In this document: in pieces, positions 6,291-22,832 of the stretch | Layout: every line of letters starts with the position of its first letter | Position numbering within the stretch: the stretch's first letter is position 1 | Assembly: GCA_030635865.1 (NCBI GenBank) | Contig: DAOVYA010000001.1 | Coordinates: forward strand, 1-23,707 | Source: Gammaproteobacteria bacterium | GTDB lineage: Bacteria; Pseudomonadota; Gammaproteobacteria; UBA9214 | Direction of reading: 5' to 3' | Length of the DNA stretch: 23,707 bases | Notes under the pieces: generated by a model | What the model was told of the DNA's origin: nothing | The model's input: only the letters and a program-made list of their open reading frames with translations | Databases searched by the model: none | Position numbers and translations under genes: made by a program

Positions 6291-6539
6291 TCAGGCAACG
6301 CGCATCCGGATTCTCCAGCGAGCCGGGAATTCGAGTATTCCCTGTGAGCGCCGAACTTCACGCAGATAGAGTTTTGATGCACGGAAACCTTCACGGAAAG
6401 AAAGCTTCATGTATTCCACCTTGTCAAGGTGACCACCGCTCAACCCGTGCCTGAAACCGGCACAAAACCGGTCTTTCTTCACATGGGAAGGGATCCTGAC
6501 ACCTGCTTCCTGCGGACTTGGGTAACGATTATCCATCAC
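6291..6539 (-). CDS. Possible small basic protein (82 residues), uncertain
   Basis: An open frame of 82 codons in an 800-base stretch otherwise lacking a gene. It starts at a GTG/ATG pair (6539 and 6536) preceded by AAAGCGAGG, an acceptable ribosome binding site. The product would be basic (many Arg and Lys), cytoplasmic and without membrane segments. A pattern near residues 28-52, GFRHGLSGG followed by FREGFRASK, loosely recalls the G-[YF]-x-x-G-[IL]-x-G and GWREA pattern of ribosome modulation factor. That resemblance is weak and made by eye. It lies inside the region bounded by the 62-bp inverted repeat and is divergent from msrA. It may be a true small gene, a remnant, or a chance frame. 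Confidence 0.3.
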   Translation of the reverse strand: MMDNRYPSPQEAGVRIPSHVKKDRFCAGFRHGLSGGHLDKVEYMKLSFREGFRASKLYLREVRRSQGILEFPARWRIRMRVA

Positions 6540-6706
6540 GCCGGCCTCGCTTTCATGACTATGCCTGTATAGACCCTATCGGCGGAAATCAGTGCAGGTT
6601 GAACGCCTCCGGAAACCGGGTGTTAAAAATCAATAAAATATATGAAACAATTACTTCCGAGCGCTGTCCATTAGCGGTACCGACCATTCAATTACAGGGG
6701 GTATCC

Positions 6707-7327
6707 ATGAAAATCCCGGCTGTTCGCACGTCTTACCTGCTTCTTTTACTGGCCTGGCTGCCTGCTGCAGGCAGTGCGGAAACCGGCCCCGGCAAGGCGA
6801 ACCTTGAAACCGCCACCTTTGCCGGCGGCTGTTTTTGGTGCATGGAACCACCCTTCGATAAACTGGATGGCGTCATATCAACCACTTCCGGATACACCGG
6901 CGGACACAAGAAAAACCCGACCTACAAGGAAGTCTCGCGCGGGGGTACCGGTCATACCGAGGCCGTACAGATTGTCTACGACCCGGAAAAGGTCAGCTAC
7001 GCGGAGTTACTGGATGTGTTCTGGCGCAACATCGACCCGACCACGGAAGATGGCCAGTTCTGCGACTGGGGCAGTCAATATCGCAGCGAAATCTTTTATC
7101 ACGATGCCGAACAGCAACAGCTGGCAAAGCACTCGAAGTCTGCGCTGGATGAACTCAAACCGTTCAAGGAACCGGTGGTTACCCTGCTTACCAGGGCATC
7201 TGTATTTTATCCGGCGGAAAACTACCACCAGGACTACTACCTGAAAAATCCGGTACGCTACAAGTTCTACCGCTATGGCTGTGGACGCGACAAGCGCCTG
7301 GATGAACTCTGGGGCAGCAGCGACTGA
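6707..7327 (+). CDS. msrA: Peptide-methionine (S)-S-oxide reductase, exported form
   Basis: Repairs oxidised methionine in proteins. The ATG at 6707 is chosen because AGGGGG lies at the right distance upstream and because it gives a textbook signal peptide (basic start, LLLLLAWLPA core, AGSA before about residue 25); longer in-frame starts back to 6518 would bury it. The catalytic Cys42 is in GCFWCMEPPF, GSQYRS is at 122-127, AENYHQDYY at 170-178, and the likely resolving Cys192 sits in the RYGCGRDKRL tail. The product of 206 residues is therefore a periplasmic enzyme protecting exported proteins. It stands alone, inside the segment bracketed by the 62-bp inverted repeat, and its electron source is not encoded next to it. 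Confidence 0.94.
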   Translation: MKIPAVRTSYLLLLLAWLPAAGSAETGPGKANLETATFAGGCFWCMEPPFDKLDGVISTTSGYTGGHKKNPTYKEVSRGGTGHTEAVQIVYDPEKVSYAELLDVFWRNIDPTTEDGQFCDWGSQYRSEIFYHDAEQQQLAKHSKSALDELKPFKEPVVTLLTRASVFYPAENYHQDYYLKNPVRYKFYRYGCGRDKRLDELWGSSD

Positions 7328-13505: not shown

Positions 13506-14897
13506 TTACAGTTCAAATGCCTGGTGCAATTCCGGCATCTCGACCCGGGTATTATCCAGCAGGCTGGAAAAAGCGGTCATGCTGTCCATTTCACCATGCA
13601 CCAGGAAGGTGATTTCGGGGCGACCGGTATGCCGGTGCCACTCCAGCAGTTCGGTCTGGCCGGCGTGTGCCGAGAAGCCACCGATGGTGTGGATCTGCGC
13701 ACGCACCGGGTAGTCTTCCCCGAAAATACTGACGGTTTTCGCCCCGTCCACGATACTGCGCGCCAGTGTTCCGCGTGCGGCGTAACCAACAAAGACGATG
13801 CTGCTGTGTTCCCGGCCCAGGTGGCGCTTGAGGTGGTGTCGTACACGTCCACCGGTACACATGCCTGAACCTGCCATGATGACGGCACCGCTGCTAACCT
13901 GGTTGATGGCCATGGAGTCGGCCGTCTCCCGCGTGAAGTGCAGACCGGGGAACTGAAAGGGGTCACGACCGGAAGAGAACAACCCGGCCATCTGCTCATC
14001 GTAGCATTCCGGGTGGCGCCTGAAGATTTGTGTGGCCGAGATAGCCATAGGGGAGTCCAGGAATACCTGTAGAAACCCGGGCAATATCCCCTGGTCCTTG
14101 CCTTCATGCAGGTAATACAGCACCTCCTGTGCACGTTCCAGCGCAAAGGTCGGAATGATGACATTACCGCCCCGCTCCACTGTTTCGTTAATAGCGTTAT
14201 ACAGTTCCTCGACGGATGGCTCGAGTTGTTTGTGCTGCCGGTCACCATAGGTGGTTTCCATGACAACGAAATCGGCCCCTGGCGGTACATCCGGGTCGCG
14301 CAGGATCGGGCGGCCACCCAGTCCCAGGTCACCGGAGAACAGTATCCTGCGCTGTCTGGAGCCTTCCGTCAGTTGCAGCACGAGACATGCCGATCCCAGG
14401 ATATGTCCGGCATCGATAAAGGTAACCTGTATGTCGGGCGACAAATGCAGGGCCTGGTTATAACGCGCAGTGCGGCCGAAATATTCAAGTGCGTTCAGGG
14501 CATCGAGGATTGTATACAGCGGCACGATGACATCCGACGACTTGCCGCGGCGCCGTGCCCGACGGTTCAGGTAACGTGCCTCTTCTTCCTGCAGGCCGGC
14601 GGAATCCAGCATGATCAGGCGTGCAAGCTCCCGGCTGGCAGACGTGGTGATAATTTCCCCTTTAAACCCCCGGCTCACCAGCAGGGGGATACGTCCGCAG
14701 TGGTCAAGGTGGGCATGGGTCAGGAGCAGGTAGTCAATAGCCGCAGCGTCGAATCCGAATTCATCGGCATTGTCCTCTTCGAGTTCGCGGCCGCCCTGGT
14801 AGAACCCGCAGTCAACAAGGATGCGTTTGCCGGCACATTCGAGCAAGTGGCAGGAACCGGTTACTCCCCGGGCCGCACCATGAAATGAAATCTTCAT
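13506..14897 (-). CDS. Beta-CASP metallo-beta-lactamase fold RNase-like protein
   Basis: Likely an RNA-processing nuclease of the CPSF/YSH1-like branch. The zinc motif THAHLDH is at 60-66, then GHILGSA near 160 and FSGDLG; the beta-CASP insert includes TFALERAQE; the closing motifs are GFSAHAGQ and VHGE, so the two-metal site is complete. The length of 463 residues fits the family. ATG 14897 is chosen because the fold begins there (KISFHGAARGVTGS); a longer in-frame start at 14951 lacks support. Upstream is an FNR-type box with a -10 at class II distance, pointing at this gene, so expression may rise when oxygen falls. It is convergent with the TlpA-like gene and divergent from aldolase. Confidence 0.9.
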   Translation of the reverse strand: MKISFHGAARGVTGSCHLLECAGKRILVDCGFYQGGRELEEDNADEFGFDAAAIDYLLLTHAHLDHCGRIPLLVSRGFKGEIITTSASRELARLIMLDSAGLQEEEARYLNRRARRRGKSSDVIVPLYTILDALNALEYFGRTARYNQALHLSPDIQVTFIDAGHILGSACLVLQLTEGSRQRRILFSGDLGLGGRPILRDPDVPPGADFVVMETTYGDRQHKQLEPSVEELYNAINETVERGGNVIIPTFALERAQEVLYYLHEGKDQGILPGFLQVFLDSPMAISATQIFRRHPECYDEQMAGLFSSGRDPFQFPGLHFTRETADSMAINQVSSGAVIMAGSGMCTGGRVRHHLKRHLGREHSSIVFVGYAARGTLARSIVDGAKTVSIFGEDYPVRAQIHTIGGFSAHAGQTELLEWHRHTGRPEITFLVHGEMDSMTAFSSLLDNTRVEMPELHQAFEL

Positions 14898-14962
14898 GTA
14901 TTTTTCATCCCCTGAAACATCCGCATTCCGGTGAAAGAAACCACTACACAAGGCACTCCATA

Positions 14963-16371: not shown

Positions 16372-17043
16372 CTACTGCTGGCTGACACTCTCCTTGTCCA
16401 CCAGGGGAACAAAGGCCACACCGAGCACGCTTTCCGTCACCGTTTTGCCCTGCTCGTCTTTTCTGACCAGCATCAGTTCCTGGTAACTGTAGGGCAGTCC
16501 CACGGGAATGGCCATCCTGCCGCCCGGCTTGAGTTGCTCGACAAGCGCTTCAGGGATATGCGTGGCAGCGGCGGTAACAATAATGCCGTCATACGGCGCG
16601 TGCTCGAGCCAGCCATGATAGCCGTTGCCAATACGCATTTCGATGTTTTGGTAGCCCAGTCTTTTGAAAAGGTCTGCTGCGGCGATACTCAGTTCTGCAA
16701 CAATTTCAACCGAATACACTTTGCTGCATAATTGCGACAGTATGGCTGTCTGGTAACCGGAACCGGTCCCGATTTCAAGGATACGGTGCTCCGGTTCGGG
16801 CGCCACCATATCGATCATCAAGGCCACAATATAGGGCTGGGAAATGGTCTGGCCGTGGCCGATGGGCAGCGGGCCGTTTTCAAAGGCCGCGGACTTCATA
16901 TTCGGCGGCACAAATTCATCACGCGGTACTTTGCGCATGGCCTCCATGACCCGTGCGTCGAGTGCGTCCTTGCCGATCAGGCTGCGGGTATATTGTACCT
17001 CGCGTTCGATATCATCGAGCATGTCCTGCAGATTCTTTTTCAC
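16372..17043 (-). CDS. pcm: Protein-L-isoaspartate O-methyltransferase, cytoplasmic copy
   Basis: Repairs isoaspartyl damage in aged proteins by methylating the abnormal carboxylate with SAM. RVMEAMRKVPRDEFVP lies at 31-46, LPIGHGQTISQPYIVA at 59-74, and the SAM-binding EIGTGSGYQ at 90-98. The start is taken as GTG 17043 because AGGAAGG lies 8 bases upstream; an in-frame ATG at 17088 would overlap ahcY by 44 bases without a clear ribosome binding site. No signal peptide is present (223 residues). The start lies 1 base beyond the ahcY stop, so the enzyme producing SAH is coupled to the enzyme that removes it. A second, exported homologue is at 19670. Confidence 0.92.
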   Translation of the reverse strand: MKKNLQDMLDDIEREVQYTRSLIGKDALDARVMEAMRKVPRDEFVPPNMKSAAFENGPLPIGHGQTISQPYIVALMIDMVAPEPEHRILEIGTGSGYQTAILSQLCSKVYSVEIVAELSIAAADLFKRLGYQNIEMRIGNGYHGWLEHAPYDGIIVTAAATHIPEALVEQLKPGGRMAIPVGLPYSYQELMLVRKDEQGKTVTESVLGVAFVPLVDKESVSQQ

Positions 17044-17044
17044 C

Positions 17045-18313
17045 TCAGGTGCCTTCCTGCCAGGAGGAAAGATAGCGCACCTGCTCATCAGTCAGGGTGT
17101 CTATCTGAATATTCATCGCCGCCAGTTTCAGATGGGCCACCTCCTGGTCGATTTCGACCGGCACAGCGTGGACGCTGTTATCCAGCTGCTGCGTCTGTGT
17201 TGCCAGATGCACCGCACATAAAACCTGGTTGGCGAAACTCATATCCATGACGGCGGAGGGATGTCCTTCAGCAGCGGCAAGGTTGACCAGCCGCCCTTCC
17301 GCCAGCAGGCATATCCGCCGCCCGTCGGCAAGCCGGTATTCATCGACGGATTCACGCGGCCGCTGTTTGCCGGTCGCCATCGCCTCCAGCGCGGGAATAT
17401 TGATCTCTACATTGAAGTGACCCGCATTCGCCAGCACACAGCCATCTTTCATGACCTCCAGGTGGGCCTTGTCAACAACGTGTTTGTCCCCGCTGGCTGT
17501 GACGATGAAGTCGGACAGTGCGGCCGCATCCAGCAGTGGCATGACACGAAAACCGTCCATGGTGGCCTCCAGCGCCCGCAGGGGATCGACTTCGGTCACA
17601 ACGACGTTGGCACCATGCCCTTTGACGCGCATGGCGATGCCGCGACCACACCAGCCATAGCCGACCACGGTAAAGGTCTTGCCGGCGATAAGAATATTGG
17701 TAGCGCGAATCACGCCGTCCAATGCGCTCTGACCGGTTCCGTAGCGATTATCGAAAAGATGTTTGGTCATGGCGTCATTAACCGCAATAACCGGGAACCG
17801 CAGTGCGCCCTCCCCGGCCATGGCGCGCAGCCGGATCACGCCCGTGGTGGTTTCTTCGGTTCCTCCCAGCATGTTGGCAATCAGGCCGGGACGCGACTGG
17901 TGTATCCGGCTGACAAGGTCGGCGCCGTCGTCCATGGTGATAACCGGCCGGTGGTCGAGTGCTGCGTCGATATGTTGGTAGTAACGTTCGTTTGATTCGC
18001 CGCGAACCGCGAATACAGGGACGCCATAACGTTCGACCAATGCGGCGGCCACGTCATCCTGGGTGCTGAGGGGATTGCTGGCGCAAAGGACGACTTCCGC
18101 GCCCGCTGCTTTAAGGGTACGGGCCAGGTTGGCGGTTTCCGTGGTGATGTGCAGGCAGCCACTCAGGTGAATGCCCCGCAAGGGTTGCTGCTGGCTGAAG
18201 CGCGCCTTGAGTTCACGCAACACGGGCATTTCCTGCCACGCCCACTCTATGCGTTTACAGCCTGCCTCTGACAGTGCCGGATTTTTAATATCGAATTCGC
18301 CAGGGTTTGTCAT
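17045..18313 (-). CDS. ahcY: Adenosylhomocysteinase
   Basis: Hydrolyses S-adenosylhomocysteine to homocysteine and adenosine, relieving product inhibition of methyltransferases. The family blocks are visible: [11 protein letters not shown] at 53-63, MDDG at 127-130, the GGTEETTTG stretch at 150-158, [18 protein letters not shown] at 179-196, and the NAD-binding GYGWCGRG at 218-225. At 422 residues it is the short form, without the insertion of about 40 residues found in many bacterial enzymes. ATG 18313 follows GGAG at a spacing of 6 bases. That site abuts an intercistronic hairpin (18323-18385) whose far arm contains the amrS stop codon, so translation may depend on amrS being read. It sits between amrS and pcm on the same strand. 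Confidence 0.95.
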
Positions 18314-18322
18314 CTGCTGCTC

Positions 18323-18385
18323 CAGCCTGCATTGATTACTAAATGAGTACAGAAGTTACCCGTTAGTAAATGCCCGTTCAGGCTG
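18323..18385 (-). promoter_or_regulatory. Intercistronic hairpin between amrS and ahcY
   Basis: CAGCCTG at 18323-18329 pairs with CAGGCTG at 18379-18385; CAT/ATG extends the stem; TTACTAA at 18336-18342 pairs with TTAGTAA at 18363-18369, closing a 20-base loop. That makes 17 pairs in 63 bases. In the transcript the first arm holds the amrS stop and the last arm ends at the first G of the ahcY ribosome binding site (GGAG). Translational coupling or RNA processing is possible. It does not match the SAH riboswitch. Confidence 0.4.
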
Positions 18386-19472
18386 CAAAGTCACGCAACC
18401 TGACCGGCTGCCGTTTTGCGCCCCAGTTGCCATGGGTCGCCTCAAAGACGCCGGCACAGGGTGTCCCGCAGGATGCACATTTTCCATCGGCGGTCAGTTT
18501 CCAGTCTGTCATCACGTACCAGTCGCGACCGATCAGCTTTTCACCGCATTGATGGCAGTAGGTGCTGTCACCGGCCTCGTTATGCACGTTCCCCGTGAAG
18601 GCATAACGCACACCGTTTTTCATGGCGATCTCACGGGCACGTATCAGGGTATCTTTGGGTGTAGCTGGAACATCCATCATCTTCCAGTCGGGGTGAAAGG
18701 CGGAAAAATGCATGGGCACATCCGGCCCCAGTTTTTCCACCACCCACTGGCTCATTGCGTCGATTTCCTTTTCCGAATCGTTCTTGCCCGGTATCAGCAG
18801 GGTTGTCAGTTCGAGCCAGACATCGGTTTCGTGTTTGATGTATTCCAGGGTTTCCAGCACCGGGGCCAGGTGCGAACCGGTGATCTTGTGATAGAAGTCT
18901 TCGGTAAATGCCTTCAGATCCACATTGGCGGCATCCATGTACTGGTAGAACTCCTTGCGGGGTTCGGGGCAGACATAACCCGCTGTGACAGCCACCGACT
19001 TGATCCCCTTCTCATGACAGGCCCTGGCGACATCGATGGCATACTCGTGGAAAATCACCGGGTCGTTATAGGTATAGGCCACACTCCGGCAGTCCAGTTT
19101 CTGCGCCGCACTGGCGATAAGTTCCGGTGAGGCTTCGTCAGTCAGGGTATGGACTTCCCGTGACTTGCTGATATCCCAGTTCTGACAGAACTTGCAGGCC
19201 AGGTTACAACCCGCGGTACCGAATGACAGCACCGACGTGCCTGGCAGAAAGTGATTCAGCGGTTTCTTTTCAATCGGGTCTATGCAATAACCGCTTGAAC
19301 GGCCGTAGGTGGTCAGCACAATCTGATCGTCGGTATTCTGACGAACAAAGCACAGGCCGCGCTGGTCGGCGTGCAGTTTGCAGAAGCGCGGACACAGGTC
19401 ACACTGCACCCGCCCGTCCTCCAGTTTGTGCCAGTACTTTGTATCGACTGTATAACGATCACGTTCTGTCAT
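18378..19472 (-). CDS. amrS: AmmeMemoRadiSam-system radical SAM enzyme (AmrS/PflA-like)
   Basis: A radical SAM protein of the AmrS group, related to pyruvate formate-lyase activating enzymes. The cluster motif is C89-NLA-C93-KF-C96. Extra cysteines flank the core: 24, 27, 31 and 41 at the N-terminus, and 306, 309, 332, 335 and 339 in a C-terminal zinc-ribbon-like segment. TAGYVCPEP near 163-171 and NVDLKAF at 183-189 are family blocks. The length of 364 residues is normal. ATG 19472 follows AGGA. The usual partners, Memo-like AmrB and AMMECR1-like AmrA, are not in this window. It heads a unit with ahcY and pcm, an unusual linkage. The biochemical role of the family is not settled. Confidence 0.88.
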   Translation of the reverse strand: MTERDRYTVDTKYWHKLEDGRVQCDLCPRFCKLHADQRGLCFVRQNTDDQIVLTTYGRSSGYCIDPIEKKPLNHFLPGTSVLSFGTAGCNLACKFCQNWDISKSREVHTLTDEASPELIASAAQKLDCRSVAYTYNDPVIFHEYAIDVARACHEKGIKSVAVTAGYVCPEPRKEFYQYMDAANVDLKAFTEDFYHKITGSHLAPVLETLEYIKHETDVWLELTTLLIPGKNDSEKEIDAMSQWVVEKLGPDVPMHFSAFHPDWKMMDVPATPKDTLIRAREIAMKNGVRYAFTGNVHNEAGDSTYCHQCGEKLIGRDWYVMTDWKLTADGKCASCGTPCAGVFEATHGNWGAKRQPVRLRDFAA

Positions 19473-19528
19473 TTAAATAGTTCCTCTTATACTGCATTTA
19501 TAGTTAACCTATTGTGCAGGGCCTGTCA

Positions 19529-19570
19529 TTGACACACATCAACAGGAAAGCCGCTTGTTTAAAGTATAGT
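19529..19570 (+). promoter_or_regulatory. FNR/Anr-type box with -10 element of the exported pcm operon
   Basis: TTGACACACATCAA (19529-19542) fits the FNR consensus with one mismatch and differs by one base from the box at 14997-15010 read in its own direction. The -10 hexamer TATAGT (19565-19570) starts exactly 22 bases after the box, the class II distance for a site centred at -41.5. The predicted start is near 19577, leaving a leader of about 93 bases. Toward amrS on the other strand no good -10 sits at that distance. Confidence 0.65.
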
Positions 19571-19602
19571 ACTCACAAACGACTTAACCAGATGGCCGCA
19601 CC

Positions 19603-19660
19603 AGGAGAATCGACACGTGCTATGCCGATAATCACGCGGTCAGGTCAACCGGCTCGGTAA
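19603..19660 (+). other. Leader with strong ribosome binding site and mini-ORFs
   Basis: AGGAGA at 19603-19608 is the best ribosome binding site in this leader, but it does not serve the methyltransferase. It stands 8 bases before GTG 19617, which opens a frame of only four codons, and 13 bases before ATG 19622, which opens a 12-codon frame ending at TAA 19658-19660. The downstream gene at 19670 has only a weak site (GGTAA). An upstream-ORF type control is possible. Confidence 0.3.
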
Positions 19661-19669
19661 AACAAGCCC

Positions 19670-20401
19670 ATGAAGCACTTGGCGCGATTTTATTTTCTAC
19701 TCCTCATGCTGCCCGGCGGCCAGGCGCTGGCCGACACAGCCGATGAATACCAGCAGCAACGCGCGCAGCTGATTCGCTTGATTGAACAGGATGTCCGTGA
19801 AACCAGTGCCTACCTGGACAAGGACAGGCTGGATCCGCGCGTCATGCAAACCATGGCCAGGGTCCCGCGTCACGAGTTTGTCCCCGAGTCTGAAAGGCGC
19901 CACGCCTATGAAAACCGGCCATTGCCGATCGGTTACGGGCAAACCATTTCACAGCCCTATATCGTCGCCATCATGACCGACCTGCTGAAGCTCGAGCCGG
20001 GTGACCGGGTCCTGGAAATCGGCACCGGTTCCGGTTATCAGGCGGCGGTTCTCGCCGAACTGGTACAGCAGGTCTACAGCATTGAAATCATCGGCGACCT
20101 CGCCCGGCGTGCGCGCACTGTGCTCGACCGGCTGGGGTATGAACAGGTCAAGACCCGGGTCGGGGACGGTTACTATGGTTGGGAGGAACAGGCACCTTTT
20201 GATGCCATTGTTGTTACTGCGGCCGCCGATCATGTGCCTCCGCCGCTGATCAAACAACTCAAACCGGGAGGCCGTATGATGATCCCGGTTGGCAGTCGCT
20301 TTATGACCCAGCAACTGGTACTGATAACAAAAGGCGAAGACGCCATCACGACCCAGCTGCTGCTGCCGGTGCGCTTCGTCCCCCTGACCGGTGAACACTA
20401 G
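19670..20401 (+). CDS. Protein-L-isoaspartate O-methyltransferase homologue with signal peptide
   Basis: The catalytic domain is intact: DPRVMQTMARVPRHEFVP at 55-72, LPIGYGQTISQPYIVA at 85-100, and the SAM motif EIGTGSGYQ at 116-124. Unlike the copy at 16372, it begins with a signal peptide (MKHLARFYFLLLMLPGGQALA, cleavage expected before Asp22), so the mature enzyme should be periplasmic. Upstream extension in frame is blocked by TAA at 19658, so this N-terminus is firm. Where its SAM would come from is unclear. It is the first gene of an operon behind an FNR-type promoter and overlaps the start region of the large membrane protein. The mature length of about 222 residues equals the cytoplasmic copy. 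Confidence 0.9.
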   Translation: MKHLARFYFLLLMLPGGQALADTADEYQQQRAQLIRLIEQDVRETSAYLDKDRLDPRVMQTMARVPRHEFVPESERRHAYENRPLPIGYGQTISQPYIVAIMTDLLKLEPGDRVLEIGTGSGYQAAVLAELVQQVYSIEIIGDLARRARTVLDRLGYEQVKTRVGDGYYGWEEQAPFDAIVVTAAADHVPPPLIKQLKPGGRMMIPVGSRFMTQQLVLITKGEDAITTQLLLPVRFVPLTGEH

Positions 20402-20402
20402 T

Positions 20403-22832
20403 GTGATAGCCGACCGGCCACCGGTCATGACCATTGCACTGCTTTCAGCCGCGGCACTCGGTTACGAGATCCTGCTGATCAGGCTGTTTTCCATTATTCA
20501 GTGGCACCACTTCGCCTATATGATCATCAGCCTGGCGCTGCTTGGTTATGGCGCGAGTGGTACCTTTCTGAGCTTTACGCAACAGCGTCTTCTGCAGCGC
20601 TATCCATTGACAATGGTGCTAAATCTGGCCCTGTTCGCTCTAAGCATCCTGCCCTGTTTTCTGCTGGCGCAACACATCCAGTTTAATCCCGAAGAAATGC
20701 TCTGGAACTGGCGGGAGGCACTGCGGCTGGTGATGATCTATTTACTCCTGGCCCTGCCTTTCTTTTTCGCCGCCAACAGCATCGCAATCACGCTGTCCCG
20801 CTACCGTTCGGTTATCACCCGCATTTATGCCGCAGATCTGCTGGGCGCCGGCATCGGCAGCCTGGCCGTGCTGCTGCTTCTCTATGCCGTGCCACCGCTC
20901 ATGGGCCTGTCCATATTGTCGACCGTCGCGGTAGCCTGCCTGGTGGTCGCAGCCGTGGAACTGCGCCTGCCGGGGCGCAACCGGATCACCGCGGCAGCAA
21001 TACTGCTGATGGCTTTAAGCATATGGCTTGGAAGCGCCTTGCAGCTGGAGCTGTCGCCTTACAAGGCACTCAGCCAGGAACTGCGTGTCGATGGCGCCCG
21101 CATCGTCAACCAGCGTTACAGCCCCCTCGGCCTGCTGCACGTGGTCGAGAACCCTGTTATTCCACGGCGCTATGCGCCCGGCATGAGTCTCAATGCAGCC
21201 GCCGGGCCGCCACGACAACTCAGTCTGTACAGTGACGGTAACAGCCTGGGCGCCATTACCCGTGATAGCGGCGAACCACAGTCTTTGCAGTTTCTTGATC
21301 AGCTAACGTCGGCCCTGCCCTATCACCTGCAGCATCCGGACTCCGTGCTTGTTCCTGGTGCCGGCGGTGGCATGAGCGTTCTGCAGGCCAGGTATCAGCA
21401 GGTGCGCGAAGTGGATGCCGTGGAACTCAATCCGCAGATCGCCGAACTGCTGTCTGACGATTATGCAGCCTTCACTAACAACCTTTATCGCCGCCCGGGT
21501 GTGCATGTCCATATCGATGAGGCGCGCGGCTTTATCAGCAATCGCAATACCCGCTATGCACTCATCCAGTTGTCCCTGCAAGGCGCTGGCGATGCTGCGT
21601 CGAGCGGCCTTTATGCGCTGAGTGAGGACTATCTCTACACGACAGAGGCTTTCAAAGCGTATCTCAGACTCCTGCAGTCAGGGGGATATATCGCTATCAC
21701 TCAGTTGATAAAGCTGCCGCCGCGCGACACACTGAAACTGTTGGCAACCGCCATAGATGCCCTGCAGGCCAGCGGCACTGAACAGCCCGGCAGGCAGTTG
21801 ATGTTAATCCGTGGCTGGCAGACCAGCACACTGTTGATCAAAAATGGCATCTTTACCACAGATGAGATCCATGCCATGCAGCTGTTTTGCCGTTCACGCG
21901 CATTCGATGTCGCGTGGTATCCCGGTATGAGTGCTGCGGAGGCCAATCGTTACAACCTGCTCAGGGAGCCCTATTTCTACCAGGCTGCACAGGCTCTGCT
22001 CGGCCCGGACAGGCAGTTATTCCTCGACAGTTACAAATTCAATCTGAACCCGGCAACTGACGACCAGCCTTTTTTTCACAATTTCTTCAAGTGGTCCACA
22101 CTCATGGAAATTCTCAGGCTGCGTGGCCAGGGCGGCCTGCCGTTACTTGAGACCGGTTACCCGGTCATTATCGCCACCCTGGCACAGGCAGTCTTGCTGA
22201 GTCTGGCACTGGTGCTGTTGCCGCTGCTACTGATCAAAAAACAGGATGCATCGGAAACACCACACGCTCTCCTGCGGCTGCGTATCGTTGCCTATTTTGC
22301 TGCAATCGGTGTGGCTTTTCTGTTTCTGGAAATCGCTTTTATCCAGAAGTTCATGCGCTTTCTTCACCAACCGGTCTTCACCGCTGCGGTTGTTCTGGCG
22401 TCGTTCCTTATCTTTGCCGGTCTGGGCAGCTCCTGGTCCCGGCGTTACAGCCTGCGCGGCATGCAGCGAAGCGGCATGCGCCATGCTGCCACCGGCATCG
22501 TACTGACGGGGCTTGTCTACCTGTTTTTACTGGACCCCCTGTTCAACTGGCTGTCGGCCTGGCCTGCTGCGGCCAGGATGGTGGTCAGCAGTCTGTTGAT
22601 TGCCCCACTCGCTTTTTTCATGGGCTCGCCGTTTCCCCTCGCACTCAGCAGCCTGGGCAAACAGGCATCGTCCCTGATCCCTCTCGCCTGGGGCGTCAAC
22701 GGCTGCGCCTCGGTGCTCAGTGCCGTACTGGCGACACTGCTGGCAATCCACTTTGGCTTCCTTGTCGTCATCGTGCTGGCGCTGATGCTCTACGCTGTTT
22801 CTGCATTTGTATTCCCTGCCACTGATTACTGA
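20403..22832 (+). CDS. Polytopic membrane protein with spermidine synthase-like domain
   Basis: About seven membrane segments (roughly residues 8-216) precede a soluble Rossmann-like domain (about 280-480), and four or five more follow after 590. The domain keeps the glycine-rich nucleotide loop (VLVPGAGGGMSVLQA) and the acidic VDAVELNP, but lacks the aspartate-rich amine-binding motif of true spermidine synthases (RYALIQLSLQG stands in its place). Basic residues gather after the second, fourth, sixth and eighth segments, which puts the N-terminus inside and the soluble domain in the periplasm. GTG 20403 is preferred because GGTGA lies 8 bases upstream; GTG 20391 is the alternative. It follows the exported methyltransferase and ends 4 bases before polX. 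Its substrate is unknown; annotation as a spermidine synthase would be misleading. Confidence 0.82.
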   Translation: MIADRPPVMTIALLSAAALGYEILLIRLFSIIQWHHFAYMIISLALLGYGASGTFLSFTQQRLLQRYPLTMVLNLALFALSILPCFLLAQHIQFNPEEMLWNWREALRLVMIYLLLALPFFFAANSIAITLSRYRSVITRIYAADLLGAGIGSLAVLLLLYAVPPLMGLSILSTVAVACLVVAAVELRLPGRNRITAAAILLMALSIWLGSALQLELSPYKALSQELRVDGARIVNQRYSPLGLLHVVENPVIPRRYAPGMSLNAAAGPPRQLSLYSDGNSLGAITRDSGEPQSLQFLDQLTSALPYHLQHPDSVLVPGAGGGMSVLQARYQQVREVDAVELNPQIAELLSDDYAAFTNNLYRRPGVHVHIDEARGFISNRNTRYALIQLSLQGAGDAASSGLYALSEDYLYTTEAFKAYLRLLQSGGYIAITQLIKLPPRDTLKLLATAIDALQASGTEQPGRQLMLIRGWQTSTLLIKNGIFTTDEIHAMQLFCRSRAFDVAWYPGMSAAEANRYNLLREPYFYQAAQALLGPDRQLFLDSYKFNLNPATDDQPFFHNFFKWSTLMEILRLRGQGGLPLLETGYPVIIATLAQAVLLSLALVLLPLLLIKKQDASETPHALLRLRIVAYFAAIGVAFLFLEIAFIQKFMRFLHQPVFTAAVVLASFLIFAGLGSSWSRRYSLRGMQRSGMRHAATGIVLTGLVYLFLLDPLFNWLSAWPAAARMVVSSLLIAPLAFFMGSPFPLALSSLGKQASSLIPLAWGVNGCASVLSAVLATLLAIHFGFLVVIVLALMLYAVSAFVFPATDY

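Follow-up and report, generated by a model that had tools for sequence, protein, structure and literature searches.

Results

A pcm gene with a predicted signal peptide

The window, by which we mean the whole 23,707-nucleotide stretch of gammaproteobacterial DNA analysed here, contains two adjoining genes on the plus strand. The first (19670-20401) encodes a protein-L-isoaspartate O-methyltransferase of 243 aa (PCMT), and the second (20391-22832) encodes a membrane protein, termed MEM, that combines an MFS-like core with an inserted spermidine-synthase-like domain. An earlier note on this DNA had described the first product as an isoaspartyl methyltransferase with an intact SAM motif and a clear signal peptide, and our data bear out both points. 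PCMT scored 227 bits against PF01135 (cut-off 20.3) and 245.3 bits against NF001453 (cut-off 188), thus passing both curated cut-offs, and its best sequence match in the PDB is 3lbf. The TISQPY motif (residues 92-97, 19943-19960, +) and the SAM motif EIGTGSGY (residues 116-123, 20015-20038, +) are intact, and T92-P96 in the former and E116, G118-S121 and Y123 in the latter are each at least 95% conserved across 76 sequences. These motifs suggest that PCMT is active in L-isoaspartyl methylation.

The N-terminus of PCMT consists of a predicted Sec signal peptide, MKHLARFYFLLLMLPGGQALA (19670-19732, +), followed by DTA. Cleavage after ALA was placed by eye, and our signal-peptide rule puts it two residues earlier. 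An in-frame TAA at 19658-19660 lies just 5' of the ATG, and therefore the start cannot be further upstream. The prediction, together with the rule-based controls described below, supports export of PCMT. A second PCMT in the window (16372-17088) is a separate gene without a signal peptide. A promoter-like site upstream of pcm (19466-19493) was rejected, since such sites occur at chance level (2 found vs 1.9 expected, both strands). No tRNA was found in the window.

Architecture and topology of MEM

As the earlier note had stated, the membrane protein gene follows that of the methyltransferase, and it does so directly. The MEM ORF spans 813 aa from a GTG and shares 11 nt with pcm; further in-frame start codons lie at residues 5 and 13. 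An identical public protein, P0001, has 801 aa, which fits the start at residue 13 (ATG at 20427) and leaves a gap of 25 nt to pcm. The AlphaFold2 model (pLDDT 89.9) contains seven helices (TM1-TM7, residues 12-216, 20424-21038, +), a soluble domain (residues about 225-585, 21063-22145, +) and seven more helices (TM8-TM14, residues 589-806, 22155-22808, +). With the soluble domain itself excluded, loops predicted to be cytoplasmic carry 17.3 K+R per protein vs 3.1 for those predicted to be periplasmic, and the bias has the same direction in 69/69 MEM homologues. Basic loops follow TM2, 4, 6 and 8, as had been noted before, and also TM10. The charge bias and the seven preceding segments therefore support a periplasmic location for the domain between TM7 and TM8, in agreement with the earlier prediction.

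Moreover, the model indicates a point absent from the earlier note, namely that the membrane core of MEM resembles an MFS protein and contains a 12-helix MFS core. Human SV2A (9okg) shares the MFS fold and 8% identity with MEM and is the one MFS protein in a list of 50 fold matches from one comparison; its function is unrelated, and it presumably has no SpeE-like domain. No MFS entry occurred among the 50 Foldseek matches listed for MEM, and Pfam MFS_1 did not match the window protein at E 0.1. An MFS-like fold does not by itself show a transport function. An internal repeat between the two membrane halves is not claimed (hhalign probability 0.2-0.3). By inspection, an E-x4-[R/Q]-x7-H pattern occurs in the MEM consensus at E26/R31/H39 and E647/Q652/H660; the window protein has Q660.

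Residues kept and lost in the spermidine-synthase-like domain

The soluble domain of MEM has the SpeE fold, and SpeE-family structures are among its best fold matches. The SpeE motif GGG[DE]GG is replaced by GAGGG (residues 323-327, 21357-21371, +), which lacks the acidic residue; this position is G in 61/69 homologues. In D(S/T)xDP, 60/69 homologues have A or S in place of the first Asp; the second Asp, on which the earlier note is silent, is kept in 63/69 but is Gly (position 398) in the window protein. The loss of amine-binding aspartates reported in the earlier note thus extends, for the GGG[DE]GG acid and the first D(S/T)xDP Asp, to most of the 69 homologues. By alignment and counts over homologues, the residues that are retained correspond to those at which SpeE enzymes hold the nucleoside part of SAM or dcSAM. 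Aminopropyl chemistry looks lost while the nucleoside-site residues are kept, and the conserved residues suggest that the domain may bind SAM.

PCMT and MEM form a recurrent pair

Signal-peptide calls were made with one home-made rule in three groups of PCMTs. A signal peptide was called in 28/31 MEM-adjacent PCMTs (31 of 33 were put through the rule; G213 and G091 were left out), in 0/20 non-adjacent paralogues drawn from 20 MEM-positive genomes, and in 2/30 PCMTs from MEM-less genomes. For the last group, 80 of 229 genomes were searched for PCMT, 68 were positive at E 1e-20 and the best 30 loci were examined. An exported-looking PCMT occurs with no MEM in L092 (by rule) and L091 (by eye).

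PCMT lies directly 5' of MEM in 75/80 genome loci, and 73 of these 75 PCMTs look signal-like by eye, the other two being truncated by a contig end. The five remaining loci all involve contig ends or runs of N: the sequence begins 38, 201 and 0 nt before MEM in L007, L013 and L030, respectively; L050 has an N run upstream of MEM and no visible PCMT; and L037 has a PCMT across an N run. Because that run forms the PCMT-MEM junction, the read-through ORF in L037 is not taken as a gene fusion, and the locus stays outside the count of 75. Locus L039, from the laboratory methanotroph Methylotuvimicrobium buryatense 5G, carries the pair. PCMT also adjoins MEM in 33/38 genomes of a class sample that was drawn evenly. 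MEM matches occurred in 44 non-own genomes of this sample; the search for PCMT left out five of them, with E above 1e-4, and the count of 38 further omits G240 (E 3.8e-8), along with any second MEM place, or partial or weak one, in the same genomes. The earlier note had named a lack of co-occurrence across genomes as evidence against its proposal, and our survey finds the opposite. Distant MEMs (28-30% identical) in G110, G123 and G143 have no adjacent PCMT, and therefore MEM-like proteins can act alone.

Nineteen plasmid records matched MEM, nine of them covering at least 80%, and the pair was found in all three loci examined (H1, H3 and H8). The annotated PCMT start on H1 leaves just the end of the signal peptide. 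H10, outside the examined set, has an unannotated partial MEM match with 27% identity. When the ORFs from the 80 loci (90 aa or longer) were clustered, no third conserved gene emerged beside the pair; the next-commonest neighbour cluster, response-regulator-like, occurs in 16/80. A class I methyltransferase, without a signal peptide by eye, adjoins the pair in Microvirga. The agreement of the two trees could by itself stem from shared descent.

Discussion

Proteins age via isoaspartate formation, and no turnover driven by ATP operates in the periplasm. SAM chemistry is usually seen as confined to the cytoplasm, and SAM is not known to be used outside the interior of the bacterial cell. The PCMT-MEM pair occurs in many Gram-negative bacteria and seems to send a repair enzyme outside the cell interior together with a transporter-like partner, which may bring the methyl donor SAM to it. 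PCMT belongs to the same family as the Pcm/PCMT repair enzyme, with the SAM and TISQP motifs intact, but differs from ordinary members by its signal peptide and its pairing with MEM. No description of this pair, or of any bacterial PCMT that is exported and works with a membrane protein, is among the matches listed from the open-access literature, which leaves subscription papers and preprints aside.

The fused MFS/spermidine synthases (NF037959) and membrane aminopropyltransferases (NF002956, PRK03612) resemble MEM in that an MFS-like or 7TM part is joined to a SpeE-like domain, whereas MEM places this domain between two membrane halves. NF037959 did not match the window protein (E limit 0.1) or any of 34 MEM members (E limit 0.01); the distant relatives L125-L128 match it above cut-off, and L126 and L127 also match MFS_1, below its cut-off. 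Eukaryotic SAM carriers and Golgi SAM transporters presumably belong to protein families different from MEM. They would solve the same problem of supplying SAM outside the cytosol (for the Golgi case, see the available part of PMC10349129). No bacterial case of periplasmic SAM supply is among the open-access literature matches listed.

The data as a whole are best explained, with a probability of about 0.5, by an envelope unit dedicated to protein repair, with MEM providing the exported PCMT with SAM or clearing SAH for it. PCMT would be exported via Sec and would methylate isoaspartyl residues in aged periplasmic and outer-membrane proteins. The exported enzyme would require SAM and yield SAH outside the cytoplasm, and MEM would be the partner that meets this need. 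Its transporter-like core could move SAM outward or SAH back in, and its periplasmic spermidine-synthase-like domain could bind SAM or SAH and pass the ligand on. That PCMT and MEM act together outside the cytoplasm is very probable, while the odds that MEM handles SAM or SAH are about even. The fuller proposal is tentative and falls somewhat short of an even chance: some Gram-negatives would keep SAM in the periplasm, and a carrier of the MFS type, with a periplasmic domain of its own that binds SAM or SAH, would export SAM (or swap it against SAH). The recipient would be an exported PCMT, which would mend isoaspartyl damage in envelope proteins with long lifetimes. The exported-looking PCMTs without MEM (L091, L092) and the distant MEMs without an adjacent PCMT limit the functional idea.

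MEM might instead be a periplasm-facing SAM-dependent methyltransferase that modifies exported proteins, as does the fungal N-terminal histidine methyltransferase NHMT (AN4663), which methylates secreted LPMOs (PMC10349129). According to that report, NHMT is located in the ER and has seven TM helices, required for activity, after which comes a spermidine-synthase-like domain that has no GxG(D/E)G acid; MEM likewise has seven helices ahead of a SpeE-like domain lacking this acid, a likeness of architecture. G327, E345 and R379 are moreover retained in the lone distant MEMs, and MEM would sit with PCMT because both use the same periplasmic SAM. However, this leaves the frequent PCMT partnership unexplained, as well as the second membrane half and the MFS-like core, and no substrate class is linked. 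NHMT has 558 aa vs 813 aa for MEM, the second membrane half being a feature of MEM; as far as the available part of the report goes, its authors found the 7TM part in fungi only and, unlike for MEM, described no PCMT partner (PMC10349129). We regard such an enzyme as possible but unlikely.

Less probable still is that MEM transports or senses another compound, such as a nucleoside, a polyamine or a peptide, bound by the SpeE-like domain, with an indirect link to PCMT, for example through envelope ageing. Rossmann-like domains can bind other nucleosides, the aminopropyltransferase residues are gone and lone MEMs occur, but in 75/80 loci a SAM enzyme lies next to MEM, and the kept residues correspond to the SAM/dcSAM nucleoside site.

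It is very improbable that the signal-like N-terminus or the topology has been misread and that both proteins use cytoplasmic SAM as an ordinary paralogue pair. The start codons are predictions and the signal-peptide rule is home-made, but the upstream in-frame stop sets the longest PCMT frame, signal peptides separate adjacent PCMTs from non-adjacent paralogues (28/31 vs 0/20), and the charge bias holds in 69/69 MEM homologues. Finally, we give hardly any credence to a membrane-anchored polyamine aminopropyltransferase, the activity that some database names suggest and the earlier note also thought unlikely: 34/34 members of the A1 set match such models at E 0.01, 24/34 match Pfam Spermine_synth at E 0.001 and the best fold matches include structures of the SpeE family, but the window protein scores far below the cut-offs (32.7 bits vs 472 for NF002956; 23.5 vs 260 for NF002010) and lacks the GGG[DE]GG acid and the first D(S/T)xDP Asp.

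If the envelope repair unit exists, bacteria repair isoaspartyl damage outside the cytoplasm through a dedicated exported enzyme, and SAM is required in the periplasm, contrary to the usual view. A function would also be assigned to one branch of the MFS/spermidine-synthase-like proteins, whose present names derive from polyamine enzymes. Were MEM to export SAM, the pair would be a bacterial counterpart to the SAM supply of the eukaryotic secretory pathway. In Rhodopseudomonas palustris, survival after growth arrest requires the PCMT gene RPA2580 (PMC5705917), and therefore isoaspartyl repair can matter to resting cells; the likeness concerns PCMT itself. Going by record names, the putative exported PCMT occurs in groups such as nitrifiers, methanotrophs and invertebrate symbionts.

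Predicted export of PCMT

The window encodes a protein-L-isoaspartate O-methyltransferase (PCMT; 19670-20401, forward strand, 243 aa) that passes the cut-offs of PF01135 and NF001453, and directly downstream an 813-aa membrane protein (MEM; 20391-22832, forward strand). The two genes overlap by 11 nt if MEM begins at GTG, or lie 25 nt apart if it begins at the ATG at 20427, a start that fits the identical public protein P0001 (801 aa). The N-terminus of PCMT is a typical Sec signal peptide as predicted from sequence, and an in-frame stop directly 5' of its start makes a longer frame impossible. The window comes from a fragmented draft assembly of 1.89 Mb in 325 contigs, with completeness 82.8 and contamination 6.3.

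An ad hoc rule (basic n-region, uncharged hydrophobic stretch and small-x-small cleavage site, from any start codon) was applied to MEM-adjacent PCMTs, non-adjacent paralogues and PCMTs of MEM-less genomes. It was positive for 28 of 31 MEM-adjacent PCMTs, the other three being signal-like by eye, and for none of the 20 best non-adjacent paralogues from 20 MEM-positive genomes; the second PCMT of the window was likewise negative. Inspection by eye of a larger set found signal peptide-like N-termini in 73 of 75 MEM-adjacent PCMTs, with L016 and L053 cut at a contig end. These comparisons support the signal peptide described in the earlier note.

Two of the 30 best PCMTs of MEM-less genomes were positive, at loci L092 (genome G136, 1408-2202) and L100 (1486-2244, reverse strand). 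The L100 protein has one or two N-terminal segments resembling a membrane anchor more than a signal peptide, and its gene adjoins an apparent ZIP transporter gene (by eye). Another MEM-less genome carries a PCMT that is signal-like by eye (L091 in G140, 1456-2217). Judged from L092 and L091, exported PCMTs may exist where the MEM partner is absent. Against the window PCMT, 31 MEM-adjacent PCMTs scored 255-347 bits and two divergent pairs 175-178 bits, and no PCMT above 250 bits was found in 80 MEM-less genomes. However, a non-adjacent paralogue in the MEM-positive genome G247 scored 267 bits and yet was rule-negative, so the exported group is not definable by score alone.

Conservation and co-inheritance of the pair

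A protein search with MEM gave 5311 relatives out of 7996 scored candidates, 120 of them listed. The best 80 loci from a scan of species genomes comprise Gamma-, Beta- and Alphaproteobacteria and records labelled Desulfobulbaceae, Desulfurivibrionaceae, Deltaproteobacteria, Sulfurospirillum and Helicobacteraceae, labels that may be wrong since many records are MAGs. PCMT lies immediately 5' of MEM on the same strand in 75 of these 80. Among the other five, the sequence begins at or near MEM in L007, L013 and L030; L037 also has a PCMT, separated from MEM by an N run; and no upstream PCMT was seen in L050, which has an N run on that side of MEM. With longest-frame starts, the gap in the 75 loci has a median of 14 nt and is at most 60 nt in 65, ranging from overlap (16 loci) to 513 nt.

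In an even sample of 274 genomes of the class, 45 had a MEM match at E 0.001, the window's own included, and PCMT adjoins MEM in 33 of 38 places considered (one per genome). Of the five exceptions, G131 has MEM at a contig start, while its PCMT lies at the edge of a different contig; in G265, a MEM fragment lies next to an apparent transposase gene. The remaining three (G110, G123, G143) are distant MEMs at 28-30% identity, yet PCMT adjoins equally distant MEMs in G213 and G091. The earlier note had looked to co-occurrence of a signal-peptide pcm gene with this membrane family across genomes, and the counts confirm it: PCMT-MEM is a real, widespread two-gene unit. A description of the pair was not found among the best-ranked matches in the open-access literature. 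MEM at L129 is truncated on its 5' side, beside an apparent transposase gene (by eye).

The PCMT and MEM trees (75 sequences each) agree: 27 of 33 MEM splits with support of at least 0.95 were found again in the PCMT tree, and no such split conflicted with the 18 PCMT splits of the same support. PCMT and MEM distances correlated at 0.69, whereas 500 permutations gave no value above 0.15; tree agreement taken alone could be explained by shared descent. In Paraburkholderia, Microvirga and Sinorhizobium, large plasmids also carry the pair (L086, L087, L088), which points to joint transfer. The Microvirga and Sinorhizobium carriers are from legumes.

Topology and domain residues of MEM

MEM combines an MFS-like membrane core with a SpeE-like (spermidine-synthase-like) domain inserted between TM7 and TM8. 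Under an N-in model, with the soluble domain excluded, 69 sequences average 17.3 Lys and Arg in cytoplasmic loops versus 3.1 in the others, and all 69 are concordant. This bias predicts a periplasmic SpeE-like domain, in agreement with the earlier placement. All 69 MEMs have Glu-26 and Glu-647 in the membrane core; L124, a divergent paired MEM, has Gln at the Glu-26 position.

Within the domain, G323 (68 of 69), G325 (68), G327 (69), E345 (68), D/E377 (69) and R379 (69) are kept, positions that align with nucleoside-binding residues of SpeE enzymes. The acid of GxG(D/E)G is lost (Gly in 61 of 69), as is the first Asp of D(S/T)xDP (Ala or Ser in 60). This agrees with the loss of amine-binding aspartates claimed earlier. 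The second Asp of D(S/T)xDP stays in 63 of 69 but is Gly in the window MEM. With nucleoside positions kept and acidic residues lost, aminopropyl transfer appears unlikely and SAM/SAH binding plausible.

At E 0.001 Pfam gave nothing for the window MEM, and its matches to polyamine aminopropyltransferase models all fell below threshold; 24 of 34 homologues matched Spermine_synth. MEM lies outside the coverage of NF037959, the fused MFS/spermidine synthase model, whereas its distant relatives L125-L128 lie inside; in these the SpeE-like domain follows membrane segments and is placed nearer the C-terminus.

Possible function of the pair

Computation supports export of PCMT, the topology of MEM and their partnership. 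By sequence, PCMT belongs to its known family, and its unusual feature is its predicted location. The pair is most economically read as a unit for repair in the periplasm, in which MEM would handle the cofactor of PCMT. We infer that PCMT would repair isoaspartyl damage outside the cytoplasm, while MEM would move SAM out and/or recover SAH through its MFS-like core, its periplasmic domain acting as the site of binding and hand-over. PCMT repair would thus be relocated with a dedicated partner attached, and the categorically new part would be SAM supply to the bacterial periplasm.

In the main rival reading, MEM could itself be a methyltransferase, by analogy with the fungal N-terminal histidine methyltransferase NHMT. 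The published account describes NHMT as an ER-resident protein in which a SpeE-like domain lacking the acid comes after seven TM helices; it methylates secreted LPMOs, and truncating the TM part eliminated the modification (PMC10349129). The lone MEMs of G110, G123 and G143 fit a methyltransferase better than cofactor supply, whereas cofactor supply better suits the near-constant presence of a PCMT partner. A spermidine synthase is rejected by the residue tests.

Three distant MEM relatives (L120, L121, L122; 25-26% identical in alignment A3) keep G327, E345 and R379; no adjoining PCMT was found at these loci, and apparent cytochrome bd oxidase genes adjoin at L122 (by eye).

Other genes in the window

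Divergent from the exported pcm gene is an AmmeMemoRadiSam system radical SAM enzyme gene (18378-19472, reverse strand; TIGR04337, 663 bits). Beside it and an adenosylhomocysteinase ORF (17045-18313, reverse strand) lies the second PCMT, which has no signal peptide (16372-17088, reverse strand). The two ORFs share 44 nt where that of adenosylhomocysteinase ends, and the true start of this PCMT may lie further inside. An MBL/beta-CASP nuclease (13506-14951, reverse strand) has the type VII CRISPR Cas14 model as its best NCBIfam match. The score is 387 bits where the cut-off is 800, and a CRISPR assignment is therefore unsupported. MsrA (6518-7327, forward strand), whose N-terminus (MKIPAVRTSYLLLLLAWLPAAGSAETG) resembles a signal peptide by eye, is a second repair enzyme of export-like appearance, 12 kb from the PCMT-MEM pair.
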